Below, piece by piece: positions 1,930 through 23,497 of a stretch of DNA of 64,000 bases. Source of the stretch: a virus; IMG/VR virus record IMGVR_UViG_3300049734_000263, positions 1 to 64,000 of that record. The stretch is one strand, 5' to 3'. The position numbers and the translations under genes are program-made. The notes beneath the pieces are model-generated. The model was given only the letters and a program-made list of their open reading frames with translations. It had not been told where the DNA came from and ran no database searches. Each line of letters starts with the position of its first letter. Within the stretch, counting starts at the first letter, position 1.

Positions 1930-2400
1930 ATGACTGACCACATCCCAATTCACGAAGGCCGCAGACTCCTCCAGGCGCAGGCGACGCATAAGCAGATCCA
2001 GTCTGCCGTCGAGGAATATCTGACCGTGCGGGGCATTCCGTGTTCAGCCACGGACGCCACGGAGGCATACAACCGCAAAGGCCAGCGCGTTCGTCGTGTG
2101 GAAGAGGGCTGGCCCGACGTGACCGGCTGCTGCAGCGTGCGGACAGTTTTTGGTTCCTTCTCTGGAATTTTTCTGGCCGTCGAAGTTAAGACGGCGAAGG
2201 ATAAGTTGAGGCTGGCTCAGGCCAAGGTCCTACACGCGCTCTATCAGGCCGGGGCGCTGGTCGTGGTTGCGCGGTCGCTCGACGCGGTCATCCTGGCGCT
2301 GGAAACAGGCAAGGCCCCTGCCGAGACGTTGGCGGAGATTACGGCGACGCTAGCGAAGGAAGGGAAGCCGAAGAAGCAACGGAGGGCGAGCAAGAGATGA
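1930..2400 (+). CDS. VRR-NUC-type nuclease
   Basis: A 156-residue protein. GWPDVTG followed by AVEVKTAKDKL gives the PD-x(n)-(E)xK active-site arrangement of small phage VRR-NUC (PD-(D/E)XK) nucleases, here near residues 55-85. The helix after it (QAKVLHALYQAGA) and the strand VVVARS also fit the family. Such phage proteins are usually thought to cut branched or damaged DNA; the substrate here is not known. Its stop overlaps the start of the cytosine methyltransferase (ATGA), so the two are translationally coupled. Confidence 0.75.
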   Translation: MTDHIPIHEGRRLLQAQATHKQIQSAVEEYLTVRGIPCSATDATEAYNRKGQRVRRVEEGWPDVTGCCSVRTVFGSFSGIFLAVEVKTAKDKLRLAQAKVLHALYQAGALVVVARSLDAVILALETGKAPAETLAEITATLAKEGKPKKQRRASKR

Positions 2401-4514
2401 AGAAAAAGACAATAACGGCAGCTGATCTCTTCTGCGGCGCCGGCGGGACCTCGACCGGTCTTCGGCTGGCGTGCGAGCAGAAAGGAATTAACCTGAAGCT
2501 GATCGCAGTCAATCACTGGGACATAGCGATCTCGACGCACACGGCCAATCATCCGGAGGCCGATCATTTGTGCGCGCCTCTTGAATCTGTGGACCCGCGC
2601 AAATTGATCCCGAGCGGCAGGCTCGACCTGTTGGTCGCCTCTCCTGAATGCATTTATCACTCTAATGCCCGGGGCGGAAAACCGATCAACGATCAGTCTC
2701 GCGCAAGCGCCTGGCGCATCGTGGAATGGCTTTCGTATATCAAGGTTGATCACGTGCTCATTGAGAATGTGCCTGAGTTTCGCGGTTGGGGTCCTTTGAT
2801 CGAAAAGAAAGTGGAAAAGGAATTGACCCTGCCGAATCCACTGATGAAGTTTGAGAAATTTGAAGAGTGGTACGCGAAGACGCGACGGTACGGCGGAACG
2901 CTTGAGGAGTGGAAGCGCATATACCGCGACCTCCAAGGCTCGAAGACTTCCGGCTGCAAGGTAAAAAGACTGGTCAAGATCACGGTGCAAGTTCCCGATC
3001 CGAAAAGGAAGGGCGAGATTTATATATCCTTCCTGAAGGCCATCGAGTCTCACGGATACACCGTAGACGCCCGCATCGTCAACGCCGCCGATTTCGGCGC
3101 CCCGACCTCGCGCGCGAGATTATTCATTTGGGCTCGGCTTGGCCGTAAGCGAATCCCCTGGCCGGGACCGACACACGCGCCGGCGGAAAAGCCGAAGGCG
3201 AATAGGAGCGAGAGCGGGCATCTCTTCGATATGTCGCCACGTTTGAAACCGTACAGGGTGGCGCGAGAGATCATTGATTGGTCCATCCCTAGCGAATCAA
3301 TCTTTACCCGCAAAAGGCCGCTCAGTCCGAATACCTTGGCCAGAATCTGGGCTGGGCTTCAGAAGTTTTGCGGTCTGCCGTTCATCGTACCGAACTTTGG
3401 CGAGCGCGAAGGGCAACAGCCACGCACGCACGCGCTTGATAAGCCTCTCCCTGCGGTTACTTCGCACGGGGCTGGCGCGCTGGTTCAGCCGTTCCTCGTG
3501 AAGTACTACGGCGGCCACGATGCGCAATCTATTGACGACCCATTGCCCGCGATCACCGCAAGCTATGAACATTACGGCCTCGCCCAGCCGTTCATCGTCG
3601 AACTGCGCAACGGCCAGGACGCCCGTTCGATTGATAAGCCGCTGTCCACGATCACCACGAAAGGGATGCATCACGCACTTTGTCGGCCGTTTCTGGTCGT
3701 ATTGCGCAACAACGCAGATGCGCAGCCGCTGGATGAGCCGCCAGCGTCCGCAGCGGCTAACGGTCAGCACTTCGGTCTGGCGCAGCCGTTTTTAGTCCGC
3801 TACAACGGCAACCACGAAGGGCGGCGAGACGGCGACAATCGTAACGCGAGTGTTGATGAGCCGATCCCGACGCTCGACACCTCAAACCGATTGGGATTGG
3901 TCCAACCCTTCATCGTCCCGGTCAACCACGGCAAAGACGATCTGCGCTCGCACAGTGTTGACGCGCCGATGCCTGCGATCACGACCGTTGACGCCTGGGG
4001 ATTGATCGAGCCGTTTATTATCAATTCGGGCGGCCGAGACATCGCGCCGCGCAGCACAGGCGATCCGCTCAACACTGTAGTGACCCGTGACCATCTCGGA
4101 TTGGTTCAGCCGTTCCTGATTGCGATGGAACACGGCGGCCACGAGAGATCCATCGATCGGCCGCTCAACACCATCACGACCGCGAGAGGCGGGGCGCACG
4201 GATTGGTTCAACCCTACCTCGTCAAATACAACGGCACGGCCGGCGCGCAGAGCGTTGACGACCCGCTCGACACGGTGACGGCGAAAGATCGCTTCGGGCT
4301 CGTCATTCCGGAGTTGAAGCCGGGCGAAGAGATCGCGCTGCTCGATGTGCATTTCAGGATGCTTCAACCGCACGAGCTCGCGGCCGCGATGGGCTTTCCA
4401 AAAACCTATGTCTTCGTGGGCAACCGAGAGCAGAAAGTAAAACAAATAGGCAACGCGGTCGCCGTGAACCTCGCGCAGGCGCTGTGCTCGGCCATTCTTT
4501 CGGAGGGAAAATGA
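2397..4514 (+). CDS. dcm: DNA (cytosine-5) methyltransferase with nine-repeat insert
   Basis: A 705-residue C5-cytosine DNA methyltransferase. Motif I is DLFCGAGGTSTG (residues 10-21). The catalytic loop is ASPEC (81-85), with Glu in place of the usual second Pro-Cys neighbour, and motif VI is ENV (123-125). The C-terminal motif GNAVAVNLAQAL re-forms the AdoMet pocket. Residues 328-638, where target recognition normally lies, consist of nine tandem repeats of 33-40 residues starting PF(I/L)V. At 705 residues the protein is much longer than a simple phage enzyme of 350-450. It would methylate phage DNA to evade restriction. The start overlaps the upstream nuclease and the stop overlaps the next gene. 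Confidence 0.88.
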   Translation: MKKKTITAADLFCGAGGTSTGLRLACEQKGINLKLIAVNHWDIAISTHTANHPEADHLCAPLESVDPRKLIPSGRLDLLVASPECIYHSNARGGKPINDQSRASAWRIVEWLSYIKVDHVLIENVPEFRGWGPLIEKKVEKELTLPNPLMKFEKFEEWYAKTRRYGGTLEEWKRIYRDLQGSKTSGCKVKRLVKITVQVPDPKRKGEIYISFLKAIESHGYTVDARIVNAADFGAPTSRARLFIWARLGRKRIPWPGPTHAPAEKPKANRSESGHLFDMSPRLKPYRVAREIIDWSIPSESIFTRKRPLSPNTLARIWAGLQKFCGLPFIVPNFGEREGQQPRTHALDKPLPAVTSHGAGALVQPFLVKYYGGHDAQSIDDPLPAITASYEHYGLAQPFIVELRNGQDARSIDKPLSTITTKGMHHALCRPFLVVLRNNADAQPLDEPPASAAANGQHFGLAQPFLVRYNGNHEGRRDGDNRNASVDEPIPTLDTSNRLGLVQPFIVPVNHGKDDLRSHSVDAPMPAITTVDAWGLIEPFIINSGGRDIAPRSTGDPLNTVVTRDHLGLVQPFLIAMEHGGHERSIDRPLNTITTARGGAHGLVQPYLVKYNGTAGAQSVDDPLDTVTAKDRFGLVIPELKPGEEIALLDVHFRMLQPHELAAAMGFPKTYVFVGNREQKVKQIGNAVAVNLAQALCSAILSEGK
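3378..4310 (+). repeat. nine degenerate tandem repeats inside the cytosine methyltransferase gene
   Basis: Each unit encodes roughly PF(I/L)V-x(6-14)-(S/T)(I/V)D(D/K/E)P(L/M)-x-(T/A)(I/V)T(T/A)-x(5-8)-GL(V/A)Q. Unit starts at the protein level fall near residues 328, 362, 395, 428, 461, 501, 536, 569 and 603. The units differ clearly at the DNA level, so this is an old protein repeat and not a recent slippage expansion. Confidence 0.85.
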
Positions 4515-6748: not shown

Positions 6749-6996
6749 GCGTAATGGGTCCGAGGAGCTGCTTCTGCTGCGGCAGAGTAGAGAGCACGAC
6801 GGGTTGCGTGCGCGGGTTCCGGTGCGACTGCGATCAGGGCTTGGGCCGCGATTGCAGGGTTTGCCGGTACTGCCTGAATCATTGCGCCTGCACGGATGAG
6901 ATGAAGAAGGCGGCGCTCGACGCGAAGGTCGAATACTGCAAATCGCTTGGGCGGATTAGGGAGGCCAATCCCGACCGCATCAACAAGAGATGGTGA
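6745..6996 (+). CDS. small cysteine-rich protein
   Basis: An 83-residue protein starting at an ATGA overlap. It contains about twelve cysteines, including CFCC, CDCDQG, CRVCRYC and CAC, so it probably folds around two or more zinc ions or an iron-sulfur cluster. It lies immediately before the DndC-like gene, which itself is expected to hold an iron-sulfur cluster. No family recognised. Confidence 0.6.
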   Translation: MSVMGPRSCFCCGRVESTTGCVRGFRCDCDQGLGRDCRVCRYCLNHCACTDEMKKAALDAKVEYCKSLGRIREANPDRINKRW

Positions 6997-7000
6997 CCAT

Positions 7001-8221
7001 ATGAGAGCAGTAAGCCTATTCGAAGGCGCTCGAATGACGCTCGACCAGGCGACCGACGTGACGGCCGCGTCACTGAATGTCTATGGCGAACGCTACAAAC
7101 ATTGGGCGATCGCTTTCAGCGGCGGCAAGGATTCGACGGCGACCGTCACGGTTGTCGCCGAACTGATCCGGCAGGGAAGAGTCCCGCGTCCGAAATCCCT
7201 GACCGTTCTGTACGCCGATACCCGAATGGAGTTGCCACCGCTCCAGATCGCCGCGATGGAGATCATGAAGATCCTCGCACAGCGCGACATCGAAGCGCGC
7301 GTCGTGCTGCCCGAGATGGATGACCGCTTCTTTGTCTATATGTTCGGCCGTGGAGTCCCGGCTCCAAAAAATAAATTTCGCTGGTGCACTAGCCAGATCA
7401 AGGTCGAGCCAATGATCGCCGCAGTGAAATCACTGCGCGAGGTGGCGAGCGAGAAGCTCTTGATGATCACAGGCGTCAGACTGGGCGAATCGGCCGCGCG
7501 TGATCAGCGGATCGTGATGAGTTGCTCGCGGGACGGCGCCGAATGTGGCCAAGGTTGGTTTCAGCAATCAACGCCCGAATCCGTCGCTGATACGCTCGCG
7601 CCGCTTCTTCACTGGCGCGTCTGCCACATCTCCGATTGGCTGGAATTCTTCGCTCCGGATGCCGGATACCCGACGCTGGATGTCTTGAGCGTCTACCACG
7701 TCGGCGAGGAAGGCGACCCGATCGAGATCGCCGGGCGCACTGGTTGCGTCGGCTGCAACCTGGCCAGCAACGATCACACGCTCGACCGCGTATTGAAGCG
7801 GCCACAGTGGGCATATCTAGCGCCGTTCAAGCGATTACGCCCGCTGTATGCGGAGTTGACCAAGCCGTTCAACCGGCTGCGCAAGGGAATGGAGACCCGC
7901 GCCGACGGCGAGCTGGTGAAGAATCCCGGCCGGCTCGGCCCGCTCACGATGGAAGCCAGACGACGCGGCATGCTCGAGGTCTTCAGAATCCAATCCGAGA
8001 TCAACCGCGCCGCGCGCGAGGAGGGTAGGCCCGAGGTCAGCCTGATCAATCCCGACGAAGCAATCCGGATTAACGAGCTAATCTCGGCGAACACTTGGCC
8101 AAATCGATGGTCAGGTGAAGAGCAGATCGGCGACGCATTCACGGATCAAGTAATGAAGGATGGTATTGTGCAGCCGATCATAGCCGGTTTATCGGTCACC
8201 CGAGGCGGAAGAAGTTGGTAG
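7001..8221 (+). CDS. DndC-like PAPS reductase family protein
   Basis: A 406-residue protein with the PP-loop SGGKDST at residues 40-46, which binds ATP in the PAPS-reductase/ATP-sulfurylase-like family. RWCTSQIK and the later GCVGC supply cysteines placed as in DndC, which carries a 4Fe-4S cluster. The C-terminal RLGPLTMEARR...IQSEIN and INPDEAIRINELI also resemble DndC, the sulfur-transfer enzyme of DNA phosphorothioation. No DndA, DndD, DndE or DndB is visible in this window. The ATG at 7001 was chosen because an upstream GTG-type extension runs into the previous gene. Confidence 0.75.
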   Translation: MRAVSLFEGARMTLDQATDVTAASLNVYGERYKHWAIAFSGGKDSTATVTVVAELIRQGRVPRPKSLTVLYADTRMELPPLQIAAMEIMKILAQRDIEARVVLPEMDDRFFVYMFGRGVPAPKNKFRWCTSQIKVEPMIAAVKSLREVASEKLLMITGVRLGESAARDQRIVMSCSRDGAECGQGWFQQSTPESVADTLAPLLHWRVCHISDWLEFFAPDAGYPTLDVLSVYHVGEEGDPIEIAGRTGCVGCNLASNDHTLDRVLKRPQWAYLAPFKRLRPLYAELTKPFNRLRKGMETRADGELVKNPGRLGPLTMEARRRGMLEVFRIQSEINRAAREEGRPEVSLINPDEAIRINELISANTWPNRWSGEEQIGDAFTDQVMKDGIVQPIIAGLSVTRGGRSW

Positions 8222-8613: not shown

Positions 8614-8667
8614 GTCTGTGATAAATTAGTGGGGTGCCATATTCAGCTGAAAGAAAGGGGTACCCCG

Positions 8668-9309
8668 ATGACAAATTTACAGCCAAAACTTCCTTATGTT
8701 TGGACAACATGGTTATCAAAATTGCTCGCTGGCGACAATTCTTGTGAGTGGGCAACTTGGTACAAGGTCAATCACGGCAAGGTTGCAACCAGAAACAATG
8801 CAGACTTTGACGCTTGGCGAATCAAGCACACGGCGTTATTGCAACGCACTCGCAAGGAGCTAGAGGCACAGGAGTGCCGGGTCCTCACTGAAGATCAAAA
8901 CTGGTTCAGACTGACAGGCGCTAGCGCTGTGTTAGGCGGCAAGCCTGATCTGATCAGTATCGGAGAGGAGTGCACGATCTGTGATGTGAAAGCTGGCCAG
9001 AAGAGATCGTCCGACCGCATACAAGTGATGATCTATATGTATGCTGTGCCGCGCGCAATGTCGCAATATAGAGGCGGGCAATTTGATGGCTTAGTCGTCT
9101 ATGAAGATAGTTGGGAAGTCATTCCTGCCGACGCGATAGACGCCACGTTTATCGCCAGTCTGGGCTCTCTGATCAAGCGCGTGAGTTCCGAAGCTCCAGC
9201 GCGCCGCGTTCCCAGCGTTCGGGAATGTAAGTTCTGCGATATGACGAAAGAGCTTTGCGACGCCAGAATTGATGGTCAGGAAGCGCAGGGCGAGACAACA
9301 GATTTCTAG
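8668..9309 (+). CDS. Cas4-like PD-(D/E)XK nuclease
   Basis: A 213-residue protein from ATG 8668 (AAAGGGG upstream). GGKPDLISIG followed by CDVKAGQ gives the D...(D)xK catalytic core of RecB/Cas4-type nucleases, and RIQVMIYMYA matches the QxxxY motif. A cysteine in NSCEW near the N-terminus and CKFCDMTKELC at the C-terminus are placed like the four cysteines that hold the Fe-S cluster in Cas4/AddB. There is no CRISPR array here, so a stand-alone role in recombination or DNA end processing is more likely. Confidence 0.7.
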   Translation: MTNLQPKLPYVWTTWLSKLLAGDNSCEWATWYKVNHGKVATRNNADFDAWRIKHTALLQRTRKELEAQECRVLTEDQNWFRLTGASAVLGGKPDLISIGEECTICDVKAGQKRSSDRIQVMIYMYAVPRAMSQYRGGQFDGLVVYEDSWEVIPADAIDATFIASLGSLIKRVSSEAPARRVPSVRECKFCDMTKELCDARIDGQEAQGETTDF

Positions 9310-22241: not shown

Positions 22242-22506
22242 AAAGCGACTGATTGCACTCGGCATTTGCGTGAAGTGCGGCCTGCGGTCGGCTGGTCGCT
22301 ATCTCCACTGCCTGCGCTGCCGTCGCATACGAGCTAAGTTGGCGCCGAAGGTCAAGGTGAAGCGGAAGCCGGGGCCTAAACCTATGCCCATACCACAGGG
22401 AACGCCGAAGACTAAGGCTGAGTACGAGCGAGTCCGAAGGGCAAGGAATGCGGCGGAACGGGCGGCGGGGAGAGGGTATTGGCCGGATATTCATGGGGAA
22501 GTATGA
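22222..22506 (+). CDS. small basic zinc-finger protein
   Basis: A 94-residue, very basic protein from ATG 22222 (GGGAGGA upstream; an ATG at 22192 is possible but has a poorer site). CVKC (residues 15-18) and CLRC (30-33) form a zinc finger of the kind seen at the N-terminus of phage HNH-related and DNA-binding proteins. The C-terminal half is lysine/arginine-rich, suggesting nucleic acid binding. Confidence 0.6.
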   Translation: MAYSMRKKRLIALGICVKCGLRSAGRYLHCLRCRRIRAKLAPKVKVKRKPGPKPMPIPQGTPKTKAEYERVRRARNAAERAAGRGYWPDIHGEV

Positions 22507-22537
22507 GGGCGGCGACGCGACCGATTTCGAGCAAATT

Positions 22538-23497
22538 ATGAATGCCCTAGTCATCAACTGTTCAAAACCTCATTACAACCTCGGCGCCCATAAGCTAGCC
22601 GATTGGCTTAGGTCGCAGGGGTGCGCGGTTGAGATCAACGGTGGTGATCCGGGGCTTTTCACGCTCGGGTACGATCAGGTCTACCTCTCGGTGATCTTCA
22701 GTTGGCACGCGCCAATTGCGCGCGCGATCGCGCTGAGGGTCAAAGGTGATTCCGACGTCTGGTGCGGTGGCCCGGGAATGGCGGCATTGGGCAACTGGTG
22801 GAAGAGAGAGACAGGACTTGATGCGGTGATCGGACTCGATCAGAGATTTGAGCGCCAGCGCGGCGATTACAAGATGTGTTTTGCCTCGCGCGGTTGCCCG
22901 GTCAATTGCTGGTTTTGCGTCGTGCCAAAGATTGAGGGACGGGCGTTTACTCTGGATTACGACTTCCAACCGGCGCCGATCCTCTGTGACAACAACCTGA
23001 GCGCGCTGCCCGTCGAGTTTCAGATGTACATAATCAATCGGTATCGAGAAAGCGGCATCAAACTCTGTGACGCGAACAGCGGATTCGAGCCGCGCAGTTT
23101 CGACGAGGATTGCTTCGAGCGATGGCGCTCAATCGTTCCCGTCTGGCGATTCGCCTTTGACGAGATGTCGGAAGCCGACGAAGTCAACCGGATGATGAAA
23201 ATTCTCGGCGACGTGCGATCGCGCCGCAAGCAGGTTTATGTCCTGGCTGGCAACGAACCTATTGAGGCTTGCTACGAGCGTGCGTTGAAGGTCATTGAGT
23301 GGGGCGGTGAGCCTTACTGTCAGCCGGTGACCGCGCTCAACGCGCTGACCAAGACGCCAATGGTCCGCCACGATTGGACGCTCGACAAGCTACGCGACTT
23401 TTGCCGTTACTTCAACCGCCGCCTATGGCGGTCAATTAAGTTGAGCGAATACCAGAGCAGGCAATACGAACCTGCGCCATTCAAGGAGATGAGATGA
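22538..23497 (+). CDS. radical SAM family protein
   Basis: A 319-residue protein; I prefer ATG 22538, after which the sequence MNALVINCSKPHYNLGAHKL looks like a natural domain start. ATG 22493 is possible. SRGCPVNCWFC holds CX3CX2C, the cluster motif of radical SAM enzymes, with an N-terminal Rossmann-like domain resembling B12-binding proteins. Later elements such as FAFDEM and VYVLAGN fit a TIM barrel. The substrate is unknown. It is the second possible Fe-S/SAM protein of this phage besides DUF5131. Confidence 0.72.
   Translation: MNALVINCSKPHYNLGAHKLADWLRSQGCAVEINGGDPGLFTLGYDQVYLSVIFSWHAPIARAIALRVKGDSDVWCGGPGMAALGNWWKRETGLDAVIGLDQRFERQRGDYKMCFASRGCPVNCWFCVVPKIEGRAFTLDYDFQPAPILCDNNLSALPVEFQMYIINRYRESGIKLCDANSGFEPRSFDEDCFERWRSIVPVWRFAFDEMSEADEVNRMMKILGDVRSRRKQVYVLAGNEPIEACYERALKVIEWGGEPYCQPVTALNALTKTPMVRHDWTLDKLRDFCRYFNRRLWRSIKLSEYQSRQYEPAPFKEMR

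Follow-up and report, generated by a model that had tools for sequence, protein, structure and literature searches.

A phage cytosine methyltransferase whose nine tandem units are probably exchangeable target recognition modules

Our analysis of a 64,000-nucleotide stretch (hereafter the window), which makes up most of the 64,849-base IMG/VR virus record IMGVR_UViG_3300049734_000263, centres on a cytosine C5 methyltransferase gene (2397..4514, + strand; an ORF of 705 amino acids). We consider it probable, at roughly three chances in four, that its product, P0001, is a multispecific anti-restriction C5 methyltransferase with exchangeable target recognition domain (TRD) cassettes. As judged from its sequence, P0001 carries tandem TRD-like modules between the catalytic core and motif IX, as in multispecific C5 methyltransferases. 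We propose that a single catalytic domain serves the nine exchangeable minimal TRDs placed after it, that each unit would provide a pair of loops equivalent to those with which single-TRD enzymes read DNA, and that the units would dock on the catalytic domain one at a time, each directing methylation to its own short site. We infer that every unit would be active with a site of its own and that, jointly, the units would shield the phage genome from several restriction enzymes, with phages retuning this protection by the gain, loss, or swap of whole units. The sequences of P0001 and its relatives show that the units exist, fall into types, turn over as modules, have coupled loops, and match known TRDs in register.

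The ATG start of the methyltransferase gene overlaps the stop of an upstream gene for a VRR-NUC domain protein (1930-2400). P0001 matched phrog_116, DNA methyltransferase, in PHROG (E 4.8e-79) and PF00145 in Pfam, the latter in separate stretches with the best at residues 653-700 (E 3.6e-30), and its 105.9 bits compared to a curated cut-off of 22 place it in PF00145. Against TIGR00675 dcm, it scored 91.3 bits, which is under the curated cut-off of 100.65, and it is not filed as a member. The members of phrog_116, to which P0001 belongs, are annotated only as cytosine methylases, and F116, ZF40, and phiH are among the P0001 relatives found by tblastn. The catalytic N-terminal part (residues 1-327; 2397..3377, + strand), delimited by AF2 and conserved motifs, holds motifs I to VIII as well as a helical linker that precedes the array, and in the alignment of relatives the core keeps DLFCGAGG, SPEC, ENV, and R-x-R. 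C85 (motif IV), E123-N124-V125 (motif VI), and R239/R241 (the R-x-R of motif VIII) are invariant in alignment A1, and the E-N-V motif (residues 123-125; 2763..2771, + strand) is present in 94 of 95 relatives. Motifs IX and X at the C-terminus (FRMLQPHEL..GNAV) and the end helices occupy 4311..4511 (+ strand) according to Pfam, the alignment, and AF2.

An earlier note on this DNA, made from the sequence alone, had remarked that the catalytic loop reads PEC rather than PPC. S-P-E-C is indeed present, and the usual (not universal) P-P-C tripeptide is replaced by P-E-C (residues 83-85; 2643..2651, + strand), which retains the invariant proline two residues before the cysteine; P83 and C85 are invariant in 17 aligned relatives. 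Since nearly all of the 95 relatives have P(D/E/T)C at this position (PDC in 62, PEC in 21, PTC in 9, and others in 3), PEC is a normal family trait and not a defect. A catalytic site damaged by PEC was ruled out, as this is an ordinary variant among the relatives.

The segment that separates the catalytic half from the C-terminal motifs, residues 328-638, consists of nine units of 32-40 residues, which we recovered with an iterated unit profile. The nine repeats that the earlier note had described ahead of the C-terminal motif are real: a held-out profile, trained without P0001 and its three nearest relatives (L002, L003, and L004), scored 255.8 bits on the P0001 array, compared to 10.5 bits for the best of 1000 residue shuffles. 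Each unit is built of a variable loop, a D-x-P scaffold, T-(I/V/L)-T, and a second variable loop, and the consensus of 673 units from 95 related proteins is PFLVKYYGGGRGRSVDEPLPTVTAGGHFALV, in which P18 and T21 are nearly invariant. All nine units are encoded on the + strand. Unit 1 (residues 328-364; 3378..3488) is of type FGEREGQ-PR..VTSHGAG, the same type as position 5 of L004, and is followed by unit 2 (residues 365-397; 3489..3587; type YYGGHDAQ..ITASYEHYG), unit 3 (residues 398-430; 3588..3686; type LRNGQDAR..ITTKGMHHA), and unit 4 (residues 431-463; 3687..3785; type LRNNADAQ..AANGQHFG). The T-(I/V/L) motif is altered in unit 4, which lacks the near-invariant T (DEPPASAAANG compared to DEPLRTLAANG in L002) and keeps its loops; this unit is possibly an inactive module. 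Unit 5 (residues 464-503; 3786..3905) has a long loop I and is of type YNGNHEGRRDGD..LDTSNRLG. The remaining units are unit 6 (residues 504-538; 3906..4010; type VNHGKDD..ITTVDAWG), unit 7 (residues 539-571; 4011..4109; type SGGRDIAPRS..VVTRDHLG), unit 8 (residues 572-605; 4110..4211; type MEHGGHERS..ITTARGGAHG), and unit 9 (residues 606-638; 4212..4310), whose type, YNGTAGA..VTAKDRFGLV, is nearly always last. Tandem Repeats Finder detected no DNA-level tandem repeat in the array (0 rows), and since the repeats are visible in the protein only, the units are old; their recent tandem duplication was ruled out on this ground.

The methyltransferase of SPbeta and phi3T is multispecific. Our reference set of seven proteins comprised the SPbeta enzyme MtbP, which is identical to the phi3T enzyme, and six phage relatives. 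With HMMER, the all-unit profile matched the variable region before motif IX in this set, in register with the T-L motif, with empirical p values from shuffles of 0.0003-0.02 for the better matches; in this register, NGRRLKEQDEPMFTLTSQDRHGV of the SPbeta-type TRD region stands against DPLDTVTAKDRFGLV. When a profile of the last unit was used, NGRRLKEQDEPMFTLTSQDRHGV and its equivalents beat all 3000 shuffles in three of the seven proteins, with a p value of 0.003 for SPbeta itself. HMMER also aligned the first SPbeta TRD to residues 229-257 of M.HhaI, which is the recognition-loop region. Since single matches of the unit profile to known TRDs are weak (5-10 bits), the argument lies in their common register. 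A search of the PDB with the unit profile matched no TRD, which we attribute to the shortness of the unit, and when the family C-terminus was compared to the SPbeta set by hhalign, motifs IX-X aligned and the TRDs for the most part did not. For the core, hhalign of the P0001 family against MtbP gave a probability of 97.7 with only ~22% identity over the aligned N-terminal half, consistent with general C5 homology. The earlier suspicion that the units may bind DNA holds up as a prediction from the in-register match to SPbeta/phi3T-type TRDs. On the other hand, the view that they stand in place of a TRD gives way to one in which each unit itself appears to be a minimal TRD.

The same evidence bears on the idea that the units form a protein-facing array, which would, for example, bind defence or restriction proteins or act as a decoy for them and be kept diverse by an arms race. 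Diversity and turnover alone would fit such an arms race, as would structure models in which units 1-8 do not pack against the core, but the units match known TRDs in register and lie at the TRD position, between the catalytic and C-terminal motifs, and we regard this idea as very improbable. Among other phage enzymes, three methyltransferases from Streptococcus and Lachnospiraceae phages (L110, L113, and L114) have a TRD closely like the second TRD of SPbeta (VLTPxRxxKRQNGRRxKxxxEPMFTLTxQDRHG), apparently a sign of TRD reuse in the SPbeta lineage too.

Within the unit, the information that distinguishes types peaks at positions 5-13 and 25-28, which flank P18 and T21. This analysis is circular in part, as the types had been defined from overall similarity, and its informative part is the contrast of loop and scaffold within a type, where several loop positions are among the most conserved, above scaffold positions 14-17. 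The fraction of glycine and polar residues is 0.59 and 0.64 in the two loops compared to 0.41 in the catalytic core. In M.HhaI, the DNA-reading loops (233-240 and 250-257) flank a scaffold and T-L motif that we take to be of the same kind. The types of loop I and loop II within a unit share an adjusted mutual information of 0.54, compared to 0.20 across unit junctions, where loop II is paired with the following unit's loop I (0.00 in shuffles); it is the whole unit and not the half unit that is inherited and exchanged.

Copy number among the 95 relatives ranges from 3 to 11 units per protein, with 8 the commonest, and clustering of the 673 units gave about 80-130 types, depending on the threshold. 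The units of one protein are dissimilar (median best normalised score of 0.26), and for 99% of units, some unit in a protein with core identity <60% is more similar than every other unit in the same array. We counted same-type pairs within a protein, last units excluded, in 57 proteins with <80% core identity and found none at the strict threshold, where 12.4 +- 3.4 were expected, and 1 and 2 at looser thresholds, where 17.3 and 21.4 were expected; with only 9 very divergent proteins, the test had no power. Since in-order inheritance would also lower the number of duplicates, this statistic alone is no proof of separate function. Among type pairs that co-occur in at least 3 proteins, 17 of 112 were found in both orders, and among protein pairs with 80-98% core identity, 155 of 170 show a difference of one unit or more, and in 14 the shared units stand in another order. 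The nearest relative, L002, has the P0001 array minus unit 6, with an in-frame DNA gap of exactly 105 bases (35 codons) and well-conserved flanks. In L003, units 3 and 4 have traded places and unit 6 comes after unit 8. The last unit is nearly always one of a few related types. Together, such whole-unit gain, loss, and reordering between relatives indicate that the modules are separable and exchangeable. Among E. coli genomes, 12 full-length copies of the gene of phage Flotzy (98-99% identity, in one piece) showed no unit variation at this close distance.

These comparisons support one part of the earlier note's proposal that the array may change specificity by unit number, in that unit sets do differ between related phages by gain, loss, and reordering of whole units, but not a slippage within one genome, for which the array offers no DNA repeats. 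Since each unit appears to be a minimal TRD, specificity is more likely set by the unit types present than by their count. A related explanation is that the array is expanded and contracted within one phage by recombination of its own repeats, which would vary specificity and would fit both the range of 3 to 11 copies between relatives and the difference of exactly one unit between P0001 and L002. We give this little credence, since an array with no DNA-level repeat and with units so dissimilar within a protein would leave little substrate for self-recombination, and exchange between phages fits better.

In the AF2 model of P0001, residues 1-260 have pLDDT values of mostly 75-97 with a dip near 81-100, unit 9 is of moderate confidence, and units 1-8 are mostly at pLDDT <50. 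Similarly, only the last unit is ordered (block pLDDT 53-80) in the AF2 model of L035, a natural three-unit relative (pTM 0.76), and its first two units are at pLDDT <50. Foldseek matched the L035 model to M.HhaI and M.HaeIII with a target-normalised TM of 0.65-0.72; these enzymes resemble L035 in overall fold and have motifs I, IV, VI, VIII, IX, and X in common, and they differ from P0001 in having one TRD and a PPC catalytic motif. Modelling was thus informative for the core and the last unit, which are ordered, and much less so for units 1-8, which are of low confidence; the models fit one-unit-at-a-time docking and do not speak for units 1-8 individually.

The low pLDDT of units 1-8, the weakness of single TRD matches, and the missing T of unit 4 count against the multispecific reading. 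It could be that only the last unit is a working TRD and that units 1-8 form an accessory DNA-binding or tethering array, giving more affinity or processivity and no added specificities, as would suit a last unit that almost always comes from a few related types and that alone is ordered by AF2. We consider this unlikely, since a general DNA-binding array needs neither ~100 types nor avoidance of repeats within a protein, the type information is concentrated in two coupled loops, and tandem TRDs of the SPbeta type are established as separate specificities (PMC12707154).

As in P0001, the multispecific enzymes of temperate Bacillus phages (M.SPRI, SPbeta/M.phi3TI, M.H2I, M.rho11sI, and M.phiBssHII) have one core and several contiguous TRDs before motif IX, and each TRD has a T-(L/V/I) motif like that of the P0001 units. 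On the other hand, P0001 has nine units (3-11 in its family) of ~34 residues that are mostly abutting, and its family has P-(D/E/T)-C where the Bacillus enzymes have P-P-C. Trautner et al. in 1996 reportedly put the TRDs of the Bacillus enzymes at about 38-54 residues. Bacillus phages are known to string several TRDs together in a single enzyme as a defence against many RM systems (PMC12707154), and precedent for the same role is cited from PMC3459991 and PMC11347163; on our analysis, anti-restriction would be the most likely role of P0001. Counting against this role, older work found no modified bases in phiH DNA by HPLC, although its genome has the family member Dcm5 (PMC6210493).

Relatives of P0001 were found by tblastn in 339 phage records, including phages of Gordonia, Mycobacterium, Pseudomonas, and Vibrio as well as archaeal phiH, and in 344 plasmid records, some of them haloarchaeal; not all of these matches span the whole query. 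A genome scan with P0001 found one relative, in a Verrucomicrobiaceae MAG. The gene dcm5 of Halobacterium phage phiH (L010) is an archaeal-phage member of the methyltransferase family. We lean towards the view that this phage- and plasmid-wide family shares a pool of ~100 or more miniature (~34-residue) TRD cassettes, with up to 11 per enzyme, each of which would read a different site and be swapped whole between mobile elements, giving combinatorial and retunable protection from restriction. Our search of the openly licensed literature found no description of these units, and an older or subscription account may exist. The multispecific methyltransferases described previously come from a handful of Bacillus phages and have a few TRDs each. 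If the family-wide view is true, bacterial and archaeal phages and plasmids would commonly use the same strategy, with modules that are shorter and more numerous. Their pool of TRD types, in which the loop positions are clear, would serve as a natural library from which to learn which C5 TRD residues read which bases, and unit sets would predict the restriction enzymes that a phage can evade.

Since the window contains a terminase large subunit and a weak match to a major head protein, it is a tailed phage or prophage fragment. An N6_N4_Mtase (PF01555) DNA methylase is encoded at 88-843, ~1.5 kb upstream of the C5 gene, and in the F116 and phiH loci the C5 gene is also paired with adenine or N4/N6 methylases. 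A PAPS reductase domain protein (PF01507) is encoded near the methyltransferase at 6947-8221, and E. coli phage Flotzy has an annotated PAPS reductase gene directly upstream of its family member, L013. The window also encodes a PD-(D/E)XK nuclease (8629-9309), which adjoins the gene for a phage-borne protein with an Mrr-type restriction endonuclease catalytic domain (PF04471; 9331-10473), and a Radical SAM protein (phrog_9298; 22448-23497).
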